DNA of 64,000 nucleotides from NCBI GenBank assembly GCA_020832445.1, contig JAFIEO010000038.1:1-64000 (forward strand). Direction: 5' to 3'. Position numbers and translations under genes: made by a program. The notes beneath the pieces are model-generated. The model worked only from the letters and a program-made list of their open reading frames with translations. It was not told where the DNA came from and made no database searches. Positions 39,396-45,061 of this stretch are shown piece by piece (the stretch's first letter is position 1; each line of letters begins with the position of its first letter). This DNA comes from Paracoccaceae bacterium (lineage in GTDB: Bacteria > Pseudomonadota > Alphaproteobacteria > Rhodobacterales > Rhodobacteraceae).

Positions 39396-40646
39396 TTACG
39401 GGCTTGTGACAAATCGCCTTGTGATCAGCCAGCTTGTGGCCGCCATCACCCCCGCAGTCGCAAGGCATAGTGGCAGCCCTCCGATCTGGTAGCTGATCCC
39501 CGACAGAAGCGTGCCCAGCAAGCGCCCCGCCGCATTTGCCATATAGTAGAAACCCACATCGCGTGTAATCCGGTCCGCCGCGCCAAACGCGAGGATCAAA
39601 TAGGAATGAACCGCCGAATTCAGCGCAAAGACAAACCCGAACACCAGCAAGCCCGCAACCAGCAAAACTGTCAGCCACGGTGCCGGACCACCCGCCAGCG
39701 CGGCCGCAGCGGCAAGCAGGAAGGGAACAGGAACCAGCAGCCCCGCCCACAAAATGGCCTTGCGGGTAATCGCGCCTTCGGATTGGGCCTTACCCCCCAG
39801 CAATTGCGGCGCGAAGGCCTGCACTGCACCATATCCGATGATCCACAACGCCATGAACCCGCCAACCAGAAAAAATGCCTCTCGTCGCCCTTCGGCGGTG
39901 CCGTCCGAGAAGACTGCCTGAAAATAGATCGGTATGCCCACCACGAACCACACATCGCGCGCCCCGAACAGAAACAGACGCGCCAAACTCAGGCGGTTCA
40001 CGCGCGCATCCAGCGATCGCCATCCCGACCATGTATCCGCACCCTTCATGCGCCCCGGCAGCCCTTCGGGCAAGAAGGCAAGCACCGCCACAAGTATGAT
40101 TGCAAGCACCGCCGCCATGCCCCAGACTGCCGCCTGAAATCCCGCAAACGCCAGCAGGGCCGCGCCCAGCAGAAAGCCCGCACCCTTGACTGCATTTTTC
40201 GACCCTGTCAGTGCTGCGACCCACTGAAACAAGGCCCCCTCACGCGACGGGGCCAACAGCTTCACGGCGGATTTGGATGACATTTTGGCCAGATCCTTGG
40301 CCACCCCCGACACGCCCTGCACAGCCATCACAAACACCACCGACGCTGTTATCGACCATGCCGGATCAAGCTGGGCAAGCGCCACAAGCGCTGCAATTTG
40401 CAAGCCAAGCCCGGCGTAAAGCGTTGCGGCCAGCCCGAACCGCGCGGCCAACCATCCCGCCGCAAGGTTTGTGATGATGCCAGCAACCTCATACAAGACA
40501 AACAGCCACGCCAATTGGACCGGGGAAAAGCCCAACGCGTTGAAATGCAAAAGCACCAGCATCCGCAATGCCCCGTCCGACAGCATGAAAGCCCAATATG
40601 CTGCTGTCACAGCCATGTAGGCGCGCAAAGGGTTGGCAGTGCTCAT
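39396..40646 (-). CDS. arsJ: organoarsenical efflux MFS transporter ArsJ
   Basis: 416-residue, 12-helix MFS permease. The strings AYWAFMLSDGALRMLVLLHF, then AGIITNLAAGWLAARFGL and GVSGVAKDLAKMSSKSAVKLL are those of ArsJ, which exports 1-arseno-3-phosphoglycerate and thereby removes arsenate. The neighbouring gapdh makes that compound, so the assignment is supported by context. I chose the ATG at 40646 after AAAGG; a TTG at 40673 is in frame. Repeat copy 4 lies between gapdh and this gene, so expression of arsJ may be reduced relative to gapdh by its hairpin. Confidence 0.92.
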   Translation of the reverse strand: MSTANPLRAYMAVTAAYWAFMLSDGALRMLVLLHFNALGFSPVQLAWLFVLYEVAGIITNLAAGWLAARFGLAATLYAGLGLQIAALVALAQLDPAWSITASVVFVMAVQGVSGVAKDLAKMSSKSAVKLLAPSREGALFQWVAALTGSKNAVKGAGFLLGAALLAFAGFQAAVWGMAAVLAIILVAVLAFLPEGLPGRMKGADTWSGWRSLDARVNRLSLARLFLFGARDVWFVVGIPIYFQAVFSDGTAEGRREAFFLVGGFMALWIIGYGAVQAFAPQLLGGKAQSEGAITRKAILWAGLLVPVPFLLAAAAALAGGPAPWLTVLLVAGLLVFGFVFALNSAVHSYLILAFGAADRITRDVGFYYMANAAGRLLGTLLSGISYQIGGLPLCLATAGVMAATSWLITRRFVTSP

Positions 40647-40674
40647 GGACAAGTGCCTTTGATTTGCAGACAAG

Positions 40675-40750: not shown

Positions 40751-41776
40751 TTACAGAGATTTGACGACCATGCGGGTAATATCGCCCAGCCTACAGGCAT
40801 ATCCCCATTCGTTGTCATACCAGGCGTATAGCTTCAGCTGGGTGTCGTTGATCACCATTGTGGACGGTCCGTCGATGATGGCGGATCGTGGGTCATTGGT
40901 GAAATCACCGGAGACCAGCGGGCGTGTTTCAAAGCCCAGAATACCCTTGAGCGGGCCGTTTGCGGCATCGTTGAGCAGTGCATTCACCTTCTCAACGGTG
41001 GTGGGGCGTTCAAGTTCAAACACGCAATCGGTCAGCGAGGCATTCAGCAATGGCACGCGCACAGCATGCCCGTTCAGACGCCCCTTGAGTTCGGGATAGA
41101 TCAGCGTAATTGCGGTGGCGCTGCCGGTTGTTGTGGGAATAAGGTTCGTCAGCGCCGAACGCGCGCGGCGCATATCCTTGGCGGGGCGGTCAACGATGGT
41201 TTGGGTGTTGGTCACATCATGGATGGTGGTGATCGATCCATGCCGAATTCCAAGCGCTTCATGGATCACCTTGACCACAGGGGCCAGACAATTGGTTGTG
41301 CAGCTTGCAGCGGTCACAATGTCATGCTGCGCGCGATCATAGAGATGGTGATTGACGCCATAGACAAGGTTCAGCGCGCCTGCATCCTTGACCGGGGCGC
41401 TGACGACCACCTTGCGCACACCAGCGTCGCGATAGGGGGCCAGCTTTGCGACCGTCTTGAACACGCCGGTGCAATCCACCACGATATCGATGCCCATATC
41501 AGCCAGTGGCAAATCCTCGATCCGGCGCGCATGGGTCAGGCGGATACGCTGTCCGCCCAGCACCAGCGCGTCCCCGTCATGCGACACAGATGTGCGCCAC
41601 CGGCCATGGACACTGTCGAATTCCAGCAACAGCGCGTGTTGTTCCGCATCGCCAAGCGGGTCATTGAGCAGCACAATCTCGCCGCCCGACCCGCTGTCGA
41701 TCAGGTCACGCAGAACAAGTTTTCCGATACGTCCAAGGCCATTGATTGCAATTCTGGGCGGGTTTTGTGACGGCAT
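40751..41776 (-). CDS. gapdh: ArsJ-associated glyceraldehyde-3-phosphate dehydrogenase
   Basis: 341-residue GAPDH. The NAD-binding fold begins [15 protein letters not shown], the catalytic cysteine is Cys159 in [11 protein letters not shown], and [14 protein letters not shown] closes the protein. When arsenate replaces phosphate, GAPDH forms 1-arseno-3-phosphoglycerate, the substrate of ArsJ. The position between an arsR-arsC fusion and arsJ marks it as the arsenic-dedicated copy rather than the glycolytic one. It starts 3 bp after the fusion gene ends. Confidence 0.92.
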
Positions 41777-41779
41777 ATG

Positions 41780-42628
41780 TCAGGCTTTCTCTGTGATCAG
41801 GGCATCTGCATCAATTGCATCGATACGGGTTTGCAGGGCAAGCCGGTCAAGCGCGGCGACCGGCAAGGCAACAAAGGCTTCGATCCGGCGGCGTAGCGCG
41901 GCATAGGTCAGGGCGAAGGCGGCTGTTGCGTCGCCATTGGTTTGGCGCGCCTGCACCGGATCGGGCAGGCCCCAATGGCCCGTGATCGGGCACCCCGACC
42001 ATCGCGGGCAGTCCTGTGCTGCGGAGGCGTCGCAAACGGTGAACACAAAATCCATCTTCGGGGCGTCGGGTGCGCGAAATTCAGCGATATGTTTCGACCG
42101 CAAACCCCGCAGGTCGTGCCCATTCCGCCGAAGAGTATCGAGGGTAGCCGCATTGGGGTGCGCGGCGGGGCGTGTGCCTGCGGAATGGGCGGTGAAACGG
42201 TGGGCGCCAAGGTCGCGCAGCAACACTTCGGCCATGACCGAGCGCGCAGAATTGCCCGAGCAGACGAACAACACATTGAATACGTGCGCGCCGCCTGTAG
42301 ACAATTCCATGCGCGCAGGCGGCAAAGGCGCCAGCAGATCGGGGCGCGCGCGACCGACATCCAGCGCAAGATAGCCGATCAGCGCTTCCGCCATGTCCAG
42401 ATCGACCGCATAGTAAAGTGACCGGCCCTGACGAGAGGCTTGGAGCAGCCCGGAGTGCACCAGATCACGCAGATGATGCGACAACGTATTCTGCTTCAGC
42501 CCCAATGCCTGCGCAATTTCCGTAGGGCGTTGCCCGCGTGGCGCAAAGCGCATCAGCAACCGGAAGACCGAAAGGCGGTCAGGGTGACCAAGGATTGCAA
42601 AGACGTGTGCGGCATGTATTGATTCCAT
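41780..42628 (-). CDS. arsR-arsC: ArsR-family regulator fused to arsenate reductase (ArsC)
   Basis: 282-residue fusion. Residues about 1-95 form an ArsR/SmtB winged helix (HPDRLSVFRLLMRFAP, GLKQNTLSHHLRDLVHSGLL). Residues about 115-265 form a low-molecular-weight phosphatase-type, thioredoxin-coupled arsenate reductase: P-loop CSGNSAR with Cys123, and the redox pair Cys199 and Cys207 in TVCDASAAQDCPRW. The ArsR half contains no cysteine at all, so the usual ELCVCDLC arsenite site is missing; sensing may rely on the ArsC half. It is the first gene of the arsenic operon. The start codon lies inside the probable operator. Confidence 0.9.
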   Translation of the reverse strand: MESIHAAHVFAILGHPDRLSVFRLLMRFAPRGQRPTEIAQALGLKQNTLSHHLRDLVHSGLLQASRQGRSLYYAVDLDMAEALIGYLALDVGRARPDLLAPLPPARMELSTGGAHVFNVLFVCSGNSARSVMAEVLLRDLGAHRFTAHSAGTRPAAHPNAATLDTLRRNGHDLRGLRSKHIAEFRAPDAPKMDFVFTVCDASAAQDCPRWSGCPITGHWGLPDPVQARQTNGDATAAFALTYAALRRRIEAFVALPVAALDRLALQTRIDAIDADALITEKA

Positions 42629-42663
42629 ACTTCATGAATAATGGAAATATTTGGCGGCGACAA
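42623..42663 (-). promoter_or_regulatory. arsR promoter and overlapping operator
   Basis: Read leftward, TTGTCG (42658-42663) and TATTCA (42635-42640) are spaced by exactly 17 bp. A symmetric palindrome covers 42623-42646: outer arms TTCCAT and ATGGAA around TTCATGAA with two bases between on each side. It overlaps the -10 element and the arsR start codon (42626-42628). Transcription would begin at or within a few bases of the ATG, implying a leaderless or nearly leaderless mRNA. The rest of 42629-42859 contains only a GCGCGG/CCGCGC stem (42753-42767). Confidence 0.55.
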
Positions 42664-42859
42664 GTGATGATTTTGCGACAACCCTCGCCGGAACGAGGCC
42701 CGGGCAGCGTATGCACATTGCAAATCGGGATGCGGATTTGCTGCCCCGACCGGCGCGGACGCCGCGCAATACTTGGGGGGGTATTCATGCAACAGGCGCG
42801 GGCTTTCACGAAAGCTGGAAGCTTGCGATACTGGCACGTCCGTCAGGGCAAACAGGCTG

Positions 42860-43483
42860 TCAATCGAGTGAGGTGACCCAAAGGATCTCTGCATCCTCGC
42901 GCGAGAGGGAAATGACATTATGGCCCATGGTCGCGTCATAATAGGCGCTGTCACCGCGCTTCATGTCGACAGGCGCATAAAATTCTGTAATCAGACGGAC
43001 TTCACCCGTCAGGACATACAGGAATTCTTCGCCGCCATGGCGCACCCAGCCGTCAAAATCCTGCATGTCACGGGCGCGTACACGGGCCTGATAGGGCAGC
43101 ATCTTCTTGGATGTCAGTTGCGCCGCAAGCAAGCGGTGGTCATAGGTGGGCGTCGGGTGGGCCGTGCCTTCGTTGCGCAAGGTCAGGGCCATACGTCCGC
43201 TGGCACGCGTCACTTCAGGGGGAGTAAACAGTTGCGGGACCGAAATTTCCAACCCGCCCGCCAGTTTTTTCAACGCGTCATAGGTGGGCGACATCTGCCC
43301 GTTTTCGATTTTGGACAAGGTCGAGCGCGCCAGTCCGGCGGCCTTTGCTGCTTGCTCCAGCGTCCAGCCCCGCGCACGACGCAACGCGCGCACCCGTTCA
43401 GCCAGATCAATGGGCTGGGCGGGTTCGACCTCACCGCCCGATCGGGCAATTTTTATGACGTTTACGTTTTCAGGATCATTCAT
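42860..43483 (-). CDS. XRE-family regulator with cupin domain
   Basis: 207-residue transcription factor. A helix-turn-helix occupies about 28-85 (VRALRRARGWTLEQAAKAAGLARSTLSKIENGQMSPTY in parts) and a C-terminal cupin barrel about 125-205 (HGGEEFLYVLTGEVRL, KRGDSAYYDATMGHNV). Such regulators sense small carboxylates, amino acids or polyamines. I chose the ATG at 43483; an upstream in-frame ATG would run into the divergent gene. It faces the acyl-CoA ligase operon across 60 bp and probably controls it. Confidence 0.87.
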   Translation of the reverse strand: MNDPENVNVIKIARSGGEVEPAQPIDLAERVRALRRARGWTLEQAAKAAGLARSTLSKIENGQMSPTYDALKKLAGGLEISVPQLFTPPEVTRASGRMALTLRNEGTAHPTPTYDHRLLAAQLTSKKMLPYQARVRARDMQDFDGWVRHGGEEFLYVLTGEVRLITEFYAPVDMKRGDSAYYDATMGHNVISLSREDAEILWVTSLD

Positions 43484-43499
43484 AGCGGTTCTCTTTACG

Positions 43500-43543
43500 C
43501 AAGCGTGCTTGGACTTGCAACTGTCACACGGCGGGCATAAATC
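43500..43543 (+). promoter_or_regulatory. operator and promoter of the ligase operon
   Basis: CAAGC (43500-43504) and GCTTG (43507-43511) form a compact palindrome between the divergent genes. TTGCAA (43515-43520) and TAAATC (43538-43543) are spaced by 17 bp. The -10 element touches the annotated ATG at 43544, so the second ATG at 43550 could be a leaderless start. Confidence 0.4.
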
Positions 43544-45061
43544 ATGCACATGTTATCTATCACCGATACCGATATACCCCAGCCCTGCCCCTCGCCGTTC
43601 AACATGGCGCGCTATGTGCTGGCTGCGGGGGCGCAAACCCCTGACAAGGTGGCATTGCAGATTGTCCGTGCAGCCGGGGCCGAGCGTTGGTCATATGCGC
43701 GCCTGATTGCGGCGGTGCGAGGTACAGGGCAAGGGTTGCTGAATGCGGGCCTGCGCCCCGGTGACCGGGTGTTGCTGCGACTGGGCAACAGCGTGGATTT
43801 CCCCGTGGCCTATCTGGGTGCGCTGGCGGCGGGGCTGGTGCCTGTGCCCACATCCACACAACTGACCGGGCCGGAAGTGACCCGAATTGCGGCGCAGGTG
43901 GCGCCCGCGCTGGTGCTGGCATCTGCGGGGGTGGCCCTGCCGGACCATCCGGCCCCCACGGTTGATACCGCGCAGTTGCGCGCGATGCAGGACTTGTCGC
44001 CCTGCGACTGGCATATGGGCGCACCTGACAGGGCGGGGTATATCATCTACACATCCGGCAGCGGGGGAAATCCCCGCGCCGTGGTGCATGCCCACCGCGC
44101 CATCTGGGCACGCCGCATGATGTGGGACGGCTGGTATGGGCTGCGATCTGATGACCGTGTGCTGCATGCGGGCGCCTTCAACTGGACCTACACGCTGGGC
44201 ACCGGATTGATGGACCCTTGGTCCATTGGTGCGACCGCCCTTATTCCCGAAGCCGGTGCGCCACTGCCGCTGATGCTGAAACGCTTTGATGCGACAATCT
44301 TTGCGGCTGTGCCGGGGGTATACCGGCAAGTGCTGAAGGACGGGCGCAAGCTGGACCTGCCACGCCTGCGCCACGGGCTGTCTGCGGGTGAAAAACTGCC
44401 CGAGGTCATCCGCAAGGCGTGGCATGATGCGACAGGCACCGAAATCTATGAGGCGCTGGGAATGTCGGAATGCTCGACCTATGTATCGGCCAACCCCGCG
44501 CGCCCTGCACCCGCGGGGGCATCGGGTTATGCACAGCAGGGGCGACGGCTGGCTGTGCTGGGCACGGATGGCGACCCCATAACGCGCGGCACTGACGGCA
44601 TGCTGGCAATCCACCGCAGCGACCCCGGGCTGATGCTGGGCTATCTGGGCGAAAATGACACGCCGGACTTGCCATTGACGGGCGCGTGGTTCCTGACTGG
44701 CGATCATGCCCGCATGGCAGATGATGGCGCGATCACTTATGTCGGGCGCAATGACGACATGATGAATGCAGGCGGGTTTCGCGTCTCGCCCCTGGAGGTG
44801 GAGCGCGCGCTGGCCGACCATCCTGGAATTTCCGATATTGCCTGCACTGAAATCGAAGTGAAGCCCGGCGTCACCATCATTGCCGCGTTCTACACCGGAC
44901 CCGCCGCCCTGCCTGTGCCAGATCTGGAATCCTTCGCCGCCAGCAGGCTGGCGCGCTACAAACAACCGCGCCTGTACCGCCATTGTGACAGCCTGCCGCG
45001 CGGGGCCAATGGTAAATTGTCACGCCGCGCCCTGCGCACCATCCACAAGGCCCCGACATGA
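43544..45061 (+). CDS. AMP-forming acyl/aryl-CoA synthetase (benzoate-CoA ligase-like)
   Basis: 505-residue ANL-superfamily enzyme. The ATP-binding P-loop reads IIYTSGSGGNPRAVVH near 163, ALGMSECS near 304 is the adenylation core motif, LTGDHARMADDGAITYVGRNDDMMNAGG near 384 holds the hinge, and PRGANGKLSRRAL near 487 has the catalytic lysine. The N-terminal PSPFNMARYVLAAG opening is typical of the benzoate-CoA ligase branch, so an aromatic or short carboxylate is likely. It heads an operon of three genes, each overlapping the next by four bases. Confidence 0.85.
   Translation: MHMLSITDTDIPQPCPSPFNMARYVLAAGAQTPDKVALQIVRAAGAERWSYARLIAAVRGTGQGLLNAGLRPGDRVLLRLGNSVDFPVAYLGALAAGLVPVPTSTQLTGPEVTRIAAQVAPALVLASAGVALPDHPAPTVDTAQLRAMQDLSPCDWHMGAPDRAGYIIYTSGSGGNPRAVVHAHRAIWARRMMWDGWYGLRSDDRVLHAGAFNWTYTLGTGLMDPWSIGATALIPEAGAPLPLMLKRFDATIFAAVPGVYRQVLKDGRKLDLPRLRHGLSAGEKLPEVIRKAWHDATGTEIYEALGMSECSTYVSANPARPAPAGASGYAQQGRRLAVLGTDGDPITRGTDGMLAIHRSDPGLMLGYLGENDTPDLPLTGAWFLTGDHARMADDGAITYVGRNDDMMNAGGFRVSPLEVERALADHPGISDIACTEIEVKPGVTIIAAFYTGPAALPVPDLESFAASRLARYKQPRLYRHCDSLPRGANGKLSRRALRTIHKAPT

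Follow-up and report, generated by a model that had tools for sequence, protein, structure and literature searches.

A predicted arsenate-export operon headed by an ArsR-ArsC fusion without arsenite-site cysteines, with the reductase half as a candidate sensor

What does an ArsR repressor respond to when the cysteines of its arsenite site are gone? ArsR is the textbook cysteine-based arsenite sensor, and operons that export 1-arseno-3-phosphoglycerate need no arsenite, which puts the signal of their repressors in question. The locus described here lies in a 64,000-nucleotide stretch of DNA from a Paracoccaceae bacterium (GenBank assembly GCA_020832445.1, contig JAFIEO010000038.1, positions 1 to 64,000 of the forward strand; hereafter the window) and carries an ArsR domain fused to an ArsC arsenate reductase. 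Fusions with a complete enzyme and no ArsR cysteine triad form a natural group that puts the sensing question to a direct test: the receptor would be either the enzyme half or a site in ArsR that needs no thiol.

The gene, arsRC, occupies 41780..42628 on the minus strand and is a single intact open reading frame of 282 amino acids, with an ATG start at 42628-42626, a stop codon at 41782-41780 and no internal stops. Its ArsR half (residues 1-98; 42335..42628, minus strand) was modelled as a winged helix with helix alpha5 at residues 77-94, using AlphaFold2 and comparison with AfArsR (6j05_B). Residues 7-82 matched the ArsR-type HTH model NF033788 (59.5 bits, cut-off 55), AfArsR was the best sequence match, and Foldseek aligned the half with 6j05_B at a TM-score of 0.91 by target length. 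The half thus has the ArsR/SmtB winged helix of the type 2 As(III) ArsRs. A low-confidence interdomain linker (residues 99-116; 42281..42334, minus strand; pLDDT 55 at residues 101-110) leads into the ArsC half (residues 117-282; 41783..42280, minus strand), where alignment and D. indicus ArsC2 (8p6m_B) place the P-loop C123-X5-R129, the redox pair C199/C207 and Asp223; the codon of the nucleophile Cys123 is at 42260..42262 (minus strand). Residues 119-252 matched LMWPc/ArsC (PF01451, 55.4 bits, cut-off 23.2), the half scored 48.1 bits against TIGR02691, under the cut-off of 174.3, and Foldseek gave a TM-score of 0.91 by target length against 8p6m_B. The AlphaFold2 monomer (one model; mean pLDDT 87, pTM 0.70) has two confident domains with a loose linker between them, and is less certain in the stretch after Cys199 (residues 201-210, pLDDT 60).

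The resolving cysteines of S. aureus pI258 ArsC are Cys82 and Cys89, 7 positions apart, whereas the window pair is 8 apart. The LMWP-type fold, the P-loop and the resolving pair are shared with this enzyme and with D. indicus ArsC2 (8p5n/8p6m), the difference being that the window ArsC is fused to a DNA-binding domain. The window protein sits on a long branch of the ArsC-half tree (0.6 changes per column) which, together with the TIGR02691 score under cut-off, means that constraint on it may be weaker than on its relatives.

Downstream on the same strand lie genes for an ArsJ-associated GAPDH (341 amino acids; 40751..41776, minus strand; NF033735, 544 bits, cut-off 450) and for ArsJ, the 1-arseno-3-phosphoglycerate (organoarsenical) exporter (up to 425 amino acids from a TTG; 39396..40673, minus strand; NF033734, 511 bits, cut-off 400). 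Both proteins are over the curated cut-offs, as expected of the GAPDH-ArsJ arsenate efflux pathway, and the order of fusion, gapdh and arsJ is the same in relatives. Lying directly 5' of the pair, arsRC is predicted to head an operon for arsenate export as 1-arseno-3-phosphoglycerate rather than a classical arsRBC operon, a context absent from an earlier note on this DNA. The 5' neighbour of the operon (42860-43549, minus strand), transcribed in the same direction, encodes 229 amino acids that read as an XRE-type HTH with a cupin-like C-terminal half.

Paracoccus sp. SY reportedly carries two arsRC genes with gapdh and arsJ, and As(III) is said to have been proposed to be channelled from ArsC to ArsR in their products. 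The earlier note's remark that ArsR-ArsC fusions are already known is correct, as ArsRC in gapdh-arsJ operons has been published (Chen, Galvan, Nadar, Yoshinaga & Rosen 2022, Environ Microbiol 24:1977, as cited in the accessible part of PMC9479143). The window protein is like those ArsRCs in its N-terminal ArsR, its C-terminal ArsC and its operon partners; judged from its sequence, it is a genuine and well-conserved variant of a fusion type already described, so no novelty attaches to the fusion as such. The SY proteins were not identified among the 101 Paracoccus genomes searched, and none of the 42 loci read held tandem arsRC genes, with one fusion per locus (30 of them read with only 1.5 kb flanks).

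The ArsR half of the window protein may depart from the published fusions in its cysteines. The fusion has four, at 123, 199, 207 and 213, and none in residues 1-122, so that the earlier note was right both about an ArsR half free of cysteine and about the retention of Cys123, Cys199 and Cys207 by the enzyme, with Cys213 omitted. AfArsR binds As(III) through Cys95, Cys96 and Cys102, according to the accessible text of PMC11868830, and these align with Val91, Gly92 and Leu99 of the window protein, within residues 90-99 (DVGRARPDLL; 42332..42361, minus strand), where related fusions have the triad DCCRGRPDLC. The alignment that the note had called for therefore confirms that the classical three-cysteine site at the end of alpha5 is absent, and the ArsR half has no thiol with which to receive arsenite in the manner reportedly proposed for the Chen et al. 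type. With no triad cysteines to accept As(III), the hand-over from ArsC to ArsR cysteines would not work in the window fusion as such.

Fusions were collected from plasmids by tblastn (ten matches read), from GTDB genomes, from surveyed GAPDH-ArsJ loci and from the 101 Paracoccus genomes, with an inclusion threshold of at least 100 bits to the window's ArsC half. The GTDB scan contributed the 80 best matches to an alignment headed by the window protein, which skews the class frequencies in favour of its kin. In total, at least 149 single-ORF ArsR-ArsC fusions were listed, 135 of them distinct. The columns corresponding to 91, 92 and 99 are all cysteine in 80 of the 149 (DCCRGRPDLC or similar), contain no cysteine in 62, window included (typically YLALDVGRARPDLL), and hold a partial triad in 7, such as the Cereibacter type DCGRGRPDLM; among distinct proteins the numbers are 75, 53 and 7. 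Most of the 80 triad-bearing fusions share the window's operon type. All listed fusions for which a class was given are from alphaproteobacteria, except one from a MAG titled Verrucomicrobiaceae (L030); the locus in that MAG is of the Rhodobacteraceae ArsRC-gapdh-arsJ type, reflecting contamination or transfer. A pseudogene or sequencing artefact was ruled out for the window gene by its intact reading frame and by a motif common to 62 of the 149 fusions (53 of 135 distinct).

In the ArsC half, the P-loop CX5R (C123-SGNSA-R129 in the window) and the C199, C207 and D223 positions are invariant in all 149 fusions. Within the Cys-less class, Cys123, Cys199 and Cys207 are present in 53/53 distinct proteins and any other ArsC-half cysteine in at most 2 of 53 per position (Cys213 in 1/53). 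The ArsR half is entirely without cysteine in 33 of the 53 and has scattered cysteines in the others, most commonly at position 59 (16/53). Among named strains, Tistrella mobilis KA081020-065 (L005) has an ArsR half free of cysteine, Rhodobacter capsulatus SB 1003 (L006) has lost the triad yet carries three further cysteines in that half, and Ruegeria conchae (L009) is an example with the triad. We estimate the chance of finding no cysteine over ∼120 residues at ∼1% Cys as roughly 0.3, so the absence of cysteine is weak by itself; the aligned loss of a specific triad is more than chance. The earlier note had suggested that the repressor, having no classical arsenite-binding site, may sense arsenate or its own catalytic thiol state through the enzyme domain. 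Loss of the triad in many relatives beside invariant ArsC cysteines does point to the ArsC half as the arsenate-recognizing part, but an enzyme domain in place of the As(III) site is not a rule for fusions as a whole, since 80 of 149 keep the triad.

The Cys-less state is clustered on the ArsC-half tree, with 3 changes (33 of 88 rows, two GTDB-scan fusions, L027 and L036, left out) against a shuffled mean of 26.8, with weak inner support, and a second ArsC-half tree gave 4 changes (33 of 107 rows) against 28.6. The state may have a single origin. Two triad-bearing members (L044, L050) and one single-cysteine member (L033) nest with weak support among Cys-less members in the 88-row tree, for which regain, a swap of domains or an error in the tree may account. 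The triad is probably ancestral, given that it is present in Azospirillum (L013), where a separate ArsR stands beside a separate ArsC; the alignments indicate that the As(III) site is truly lost in the Cys-less fusions, not merely unaligned. Median pairwise dN/dS was 0.18 for the ArsR half and 0.17 for the ArsC half in the Cys-less class (952 pairs), and 0.43 and 0.31 in the triad class (548 pairs), values that are crude, come from non-independent pairs and may be biased by saturation. Decay of the Cys-less ArsR was rejected on the class median of about 0.18, again from non-independent pairs. A replacement metal site in the ArsR half was likewise rejected, the class-specific conserved residues including no cysteine; two class-specific conserved histidines (51 and 52) fall in the recognition helix, as labelled from the alignment and model.

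The DNA in front of the gene suggests that the fusion still acts as a repressor. A 20-bp dyad (6 + 8 + 6) abuts the ATG in both the Cys-less and the triad class, with a mean arm complementarity of 4.79 of 6 (shuffled 1.69) and 4.75 of 6 (shuffled 1.96), respectively, and the signal appeared at one register only among the eight tried. The window copy, the operator-like ATTTCC-N8-TGAAGT at 42629..42648 (minus strand), has 4 of 6 complementary arm positions by hand count, against a class mean of 4.8. Many Cys-less members also have a PHO-box-like element (CTGTCATGAAACCTTCAT and similar) ∼15 bp upstream of the dyad; CTGTCAT repeats are described in the accessible parts of PMC3131613 and PMC4415409. 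Mean best scores were 11.8 in the Cys-less class (n = 53) and 10.2 in the triad class (n = 75), each against 9.2 for shuffled sequence. The putative window copy is degenerate (TTGTCGCAAAATCATCAC; 42664..42681, minus strand) and scores 10.0; many relatives have a better copy at a similar position. The element suggests a PhoB input to the arsenate-export operon and, with scores such as these, phosphate control is only a lead.

We then considered the fate of any arsenite produced. No match to ACR3 was found in the window genome (99.99% complete) by a model search or by a protein search, the latter run without a positive control. ArsB likewise gave no match with PF02040 and, because that model missed the E. 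coli control, ArsB was searched for again by protein, which was also empty but lacked a positive control. The two PF03960 matches in the genome both have CXXC, and we take them to be of the Spx/YffB kind. A bulk arsenate reductase would make arsenite in a cell with no recognized pump, so a sensing role fits the window genome better. This argument does not generalize. The ACR3 model, which works on kin, found ACR3 in 27 of the 45 genomes that hold related loci (46 loci given, L015 left out; MAGs included, completeness not stated): 18 of the 30 with a Cys-less fusion and 9 of the 15 others, by hand count. As these counts show no difference, the idea that triad loss followed from genome-wide loss of an arsenite pump was rejected.

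Within operons, whose genes were resolved by a walking rule in all but 12 of the 149 fusions, ACR3 was present, as far as read, in 25/75 triad, 0/53 Cys-less and 0/7 partial distinct fusions. Five of the 149, all triad-bearing, are followed by ACR3 without gapdh-arsJ under the walking rule. The raw association of triad loss with operon ACR3 absence was strong (0/60 versus 25/75 distinct; Fisher p 5e-8) but disappeared under phylogenetic pairing (4 supported pairs, sign test p 1). The notion that operons exporting arsenite retain the arsenite site has its appeal, but gains no support from the paired tree test.

The reading that we favour, and to which we give about an even chance, is that the window protein is an arsenate-responsive repressor of the GAPDH-ArsJ export operon with the ArsC half as its sensor. 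An ArsR dimer would sit on the dyad and block transcription until arsenate reached Cys123 in the P-loop. Its binding or turnover, together with reshaping of the C199-C207 segment, would act by way of the linker on alpha5, which forms the dimer helix, and so free the DNA. The GAPDH would produce 1-arseno-3-phosphoglycerate and ArsJ would export it, any arsenite from the ArsC half being a side product and not an inducer that ArsR binds. The gapdh-arsJ operon would explain why arsenate, rather than arsenite, is the signal wanted.

Arsenite could still be the signal if it stayed on cysteines 123, 199 and 207 and the As(III)-bound ArsC half released the DNA. These cysteines are invariant across the listed fusions, and a C15A form of S. 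aureus ArsC has been crystallized with arsenite (1lju, from the entry title); we nevertheless regard this as rather unlikely, as we saw no sign that a wild-type enzyme stably holds As(III), and the original form of the idea, with hand-over, fails for the 62 of 149 fusions without triad cysteines. Alternatively, arsenate or 1-arseno-3-phosphoglycerate might bind a site without thiols that evolved in the ArsR half, with ArsC merely an attached enzyme. Standalone ArsRs speak for such a site. In the GAPDH survey, which gave 109 loci (30 + 79) among over-cut-off matches, an ArsR lies upstream on the same strand in 68, by a rule that misses some (L155 and L164 hold fusions), and 11 of 50 standalone ArsRs upstream of gapdh-arsJ have lost the CVC of their arsenite site (hand count). 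A fused ArsC is thus not required for loss of the site, although several of these ArsRs keep other cysteines and one (L141) may be what is left of a fusion that broke up. Precedents for arsenate sensing by such proteins are the V. cholerae ArsR, proposed as an As(V) sensor by its authors in the accessible text of PMC9601151, and Thermus TtSmtB, which prefers arsenate according to that of PMC5658604. We consider a thiol-free site unlikely, because it leaves full conservation of the ArsC active site unexplained, given that no ACR3 or ArsB was found in the genome, and no new conserved cysteine has appeared in the ArsR half.

A repressor that senses no arsenic at all, with expression set by basal leakage or a PhoB-like activator and ArsC acting as a detoxifying reductase, would suit the PHO-box-like element at its nearly fixed place in the Cys-less class. 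It sits poorly with the conserved dyad and the constraint on the ArsR half, and the reductase would accumulate arsenite in a genome where neither ACR3 nor ArsB was found, barring another route such as the ArsP_1-type permease described below; we hold it to be quite unlikely. Very unlikely, in our judgement, is a mixed dimer that owes its As(III) site to a cysteine-bearing partner ArsR. The window genome has 17 matches to the ArsR family, 6 over cut-off including the fusion, and one of the other family members has CC and no third cysteine; against this, the operon has no ArsR partner, and the closest paralogue is 38% identical over 93 residues. The CC-bearing ArsR belongs to an ArsP_1-type permease on contig C98 (L002:393-1800). 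It ends SECCKGVPALARAP, with two cysteines and no third, like MAs(III)-type regulators without the third cysteine. On the minus strand of a further contig (C31; L132:4280-5732) lie a 122-amino-acid ArsR-type regulator with three cysteines and a 152-amino-acid LMWP-like protein, separated by one 160-amino-acid ORF.

Several described systems are close to the window fusion. The V. cholerae var operon, arsR-varG-varH-arsJ, is As(V)-inducible and, as in the window, combines gapdh-arsJ with an ArsR regulator whose As(III) motif is altered; its ArsR is standalone, however, and a dual-specificity phosphatase, VarH, takes the place of the fused ArsC (accessible text of PMC9601151). TtSmtB of Thermus thermophilus is an ArsR-family repressor that arsenate releases better than arsenite; unlike the window protein it is not fused and has cysteines, and the available part of PMC5658604 describes no gapdh-arsJ operon for it. 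The ArsR-ArsC fusions of clusters C4 and C7 have the same domain content as the window protein but are actinobacterial and fall in separate ArsC clusters, and sensing is not addressed in the portion of PMC6514093 available. A search of the open-access literature, with few subscription papers covered and the reverse order not queried by name, found no report of ArsRC fusions without ArsR cysteines or of reverse ArsC-ArsR fusions. If the enzyme half does sense arsenate, the fusion would offer an arsenate-specific biosensor part and a case in which a single polypeptide couples catalysis to the control of transcription.

A broader form of the favoured reading, which we advance more tentatively, is that in gapdh-arsJ operons the ArsC half took over detection, by arsenate binding or by one turnover and the thiol state of C199-C207, and that the ArsR site was discarded independently in the alphaproteobacterial ArsR-ArsC fusions and in fusions of the reverse order. 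Fusions with ArsC first and ArsR second (L242-L259, L284-L302; Pfam order confirmed for five) were found in another class of the same phylum, presumably the Gammaproteobacteria by our reading of the sequences, and lie mostly beside gapdh-arsJ and/or acr3-arsH. Of the 19 that were fully read, 10 have CVC at the R773-type site and 9 a broken version of it (CVY, CVN, SVG, TVS), and the P-loop and cysteine pair are intact in 19/19. The site has changed three times on the best tree, two of the changes being forced by supported branches. Operon ACR3 was again associated with the state of the site (p 0.02, from hand counts, one of which rests on a weak ACR3 match in L301), and the association again failed under phylogenetic pairing, with 1 pair only. 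Since the raw associations fail this pairing in both fusion orders, operon ACR3 was rejected as statistical proof and its link to the triad is descriptive only. In two reverse fusions with a broken site (L295 and L301), the DP-loop Asp seems, by pattern match and by eye, to be replaced too, which would suit binding without turnover.
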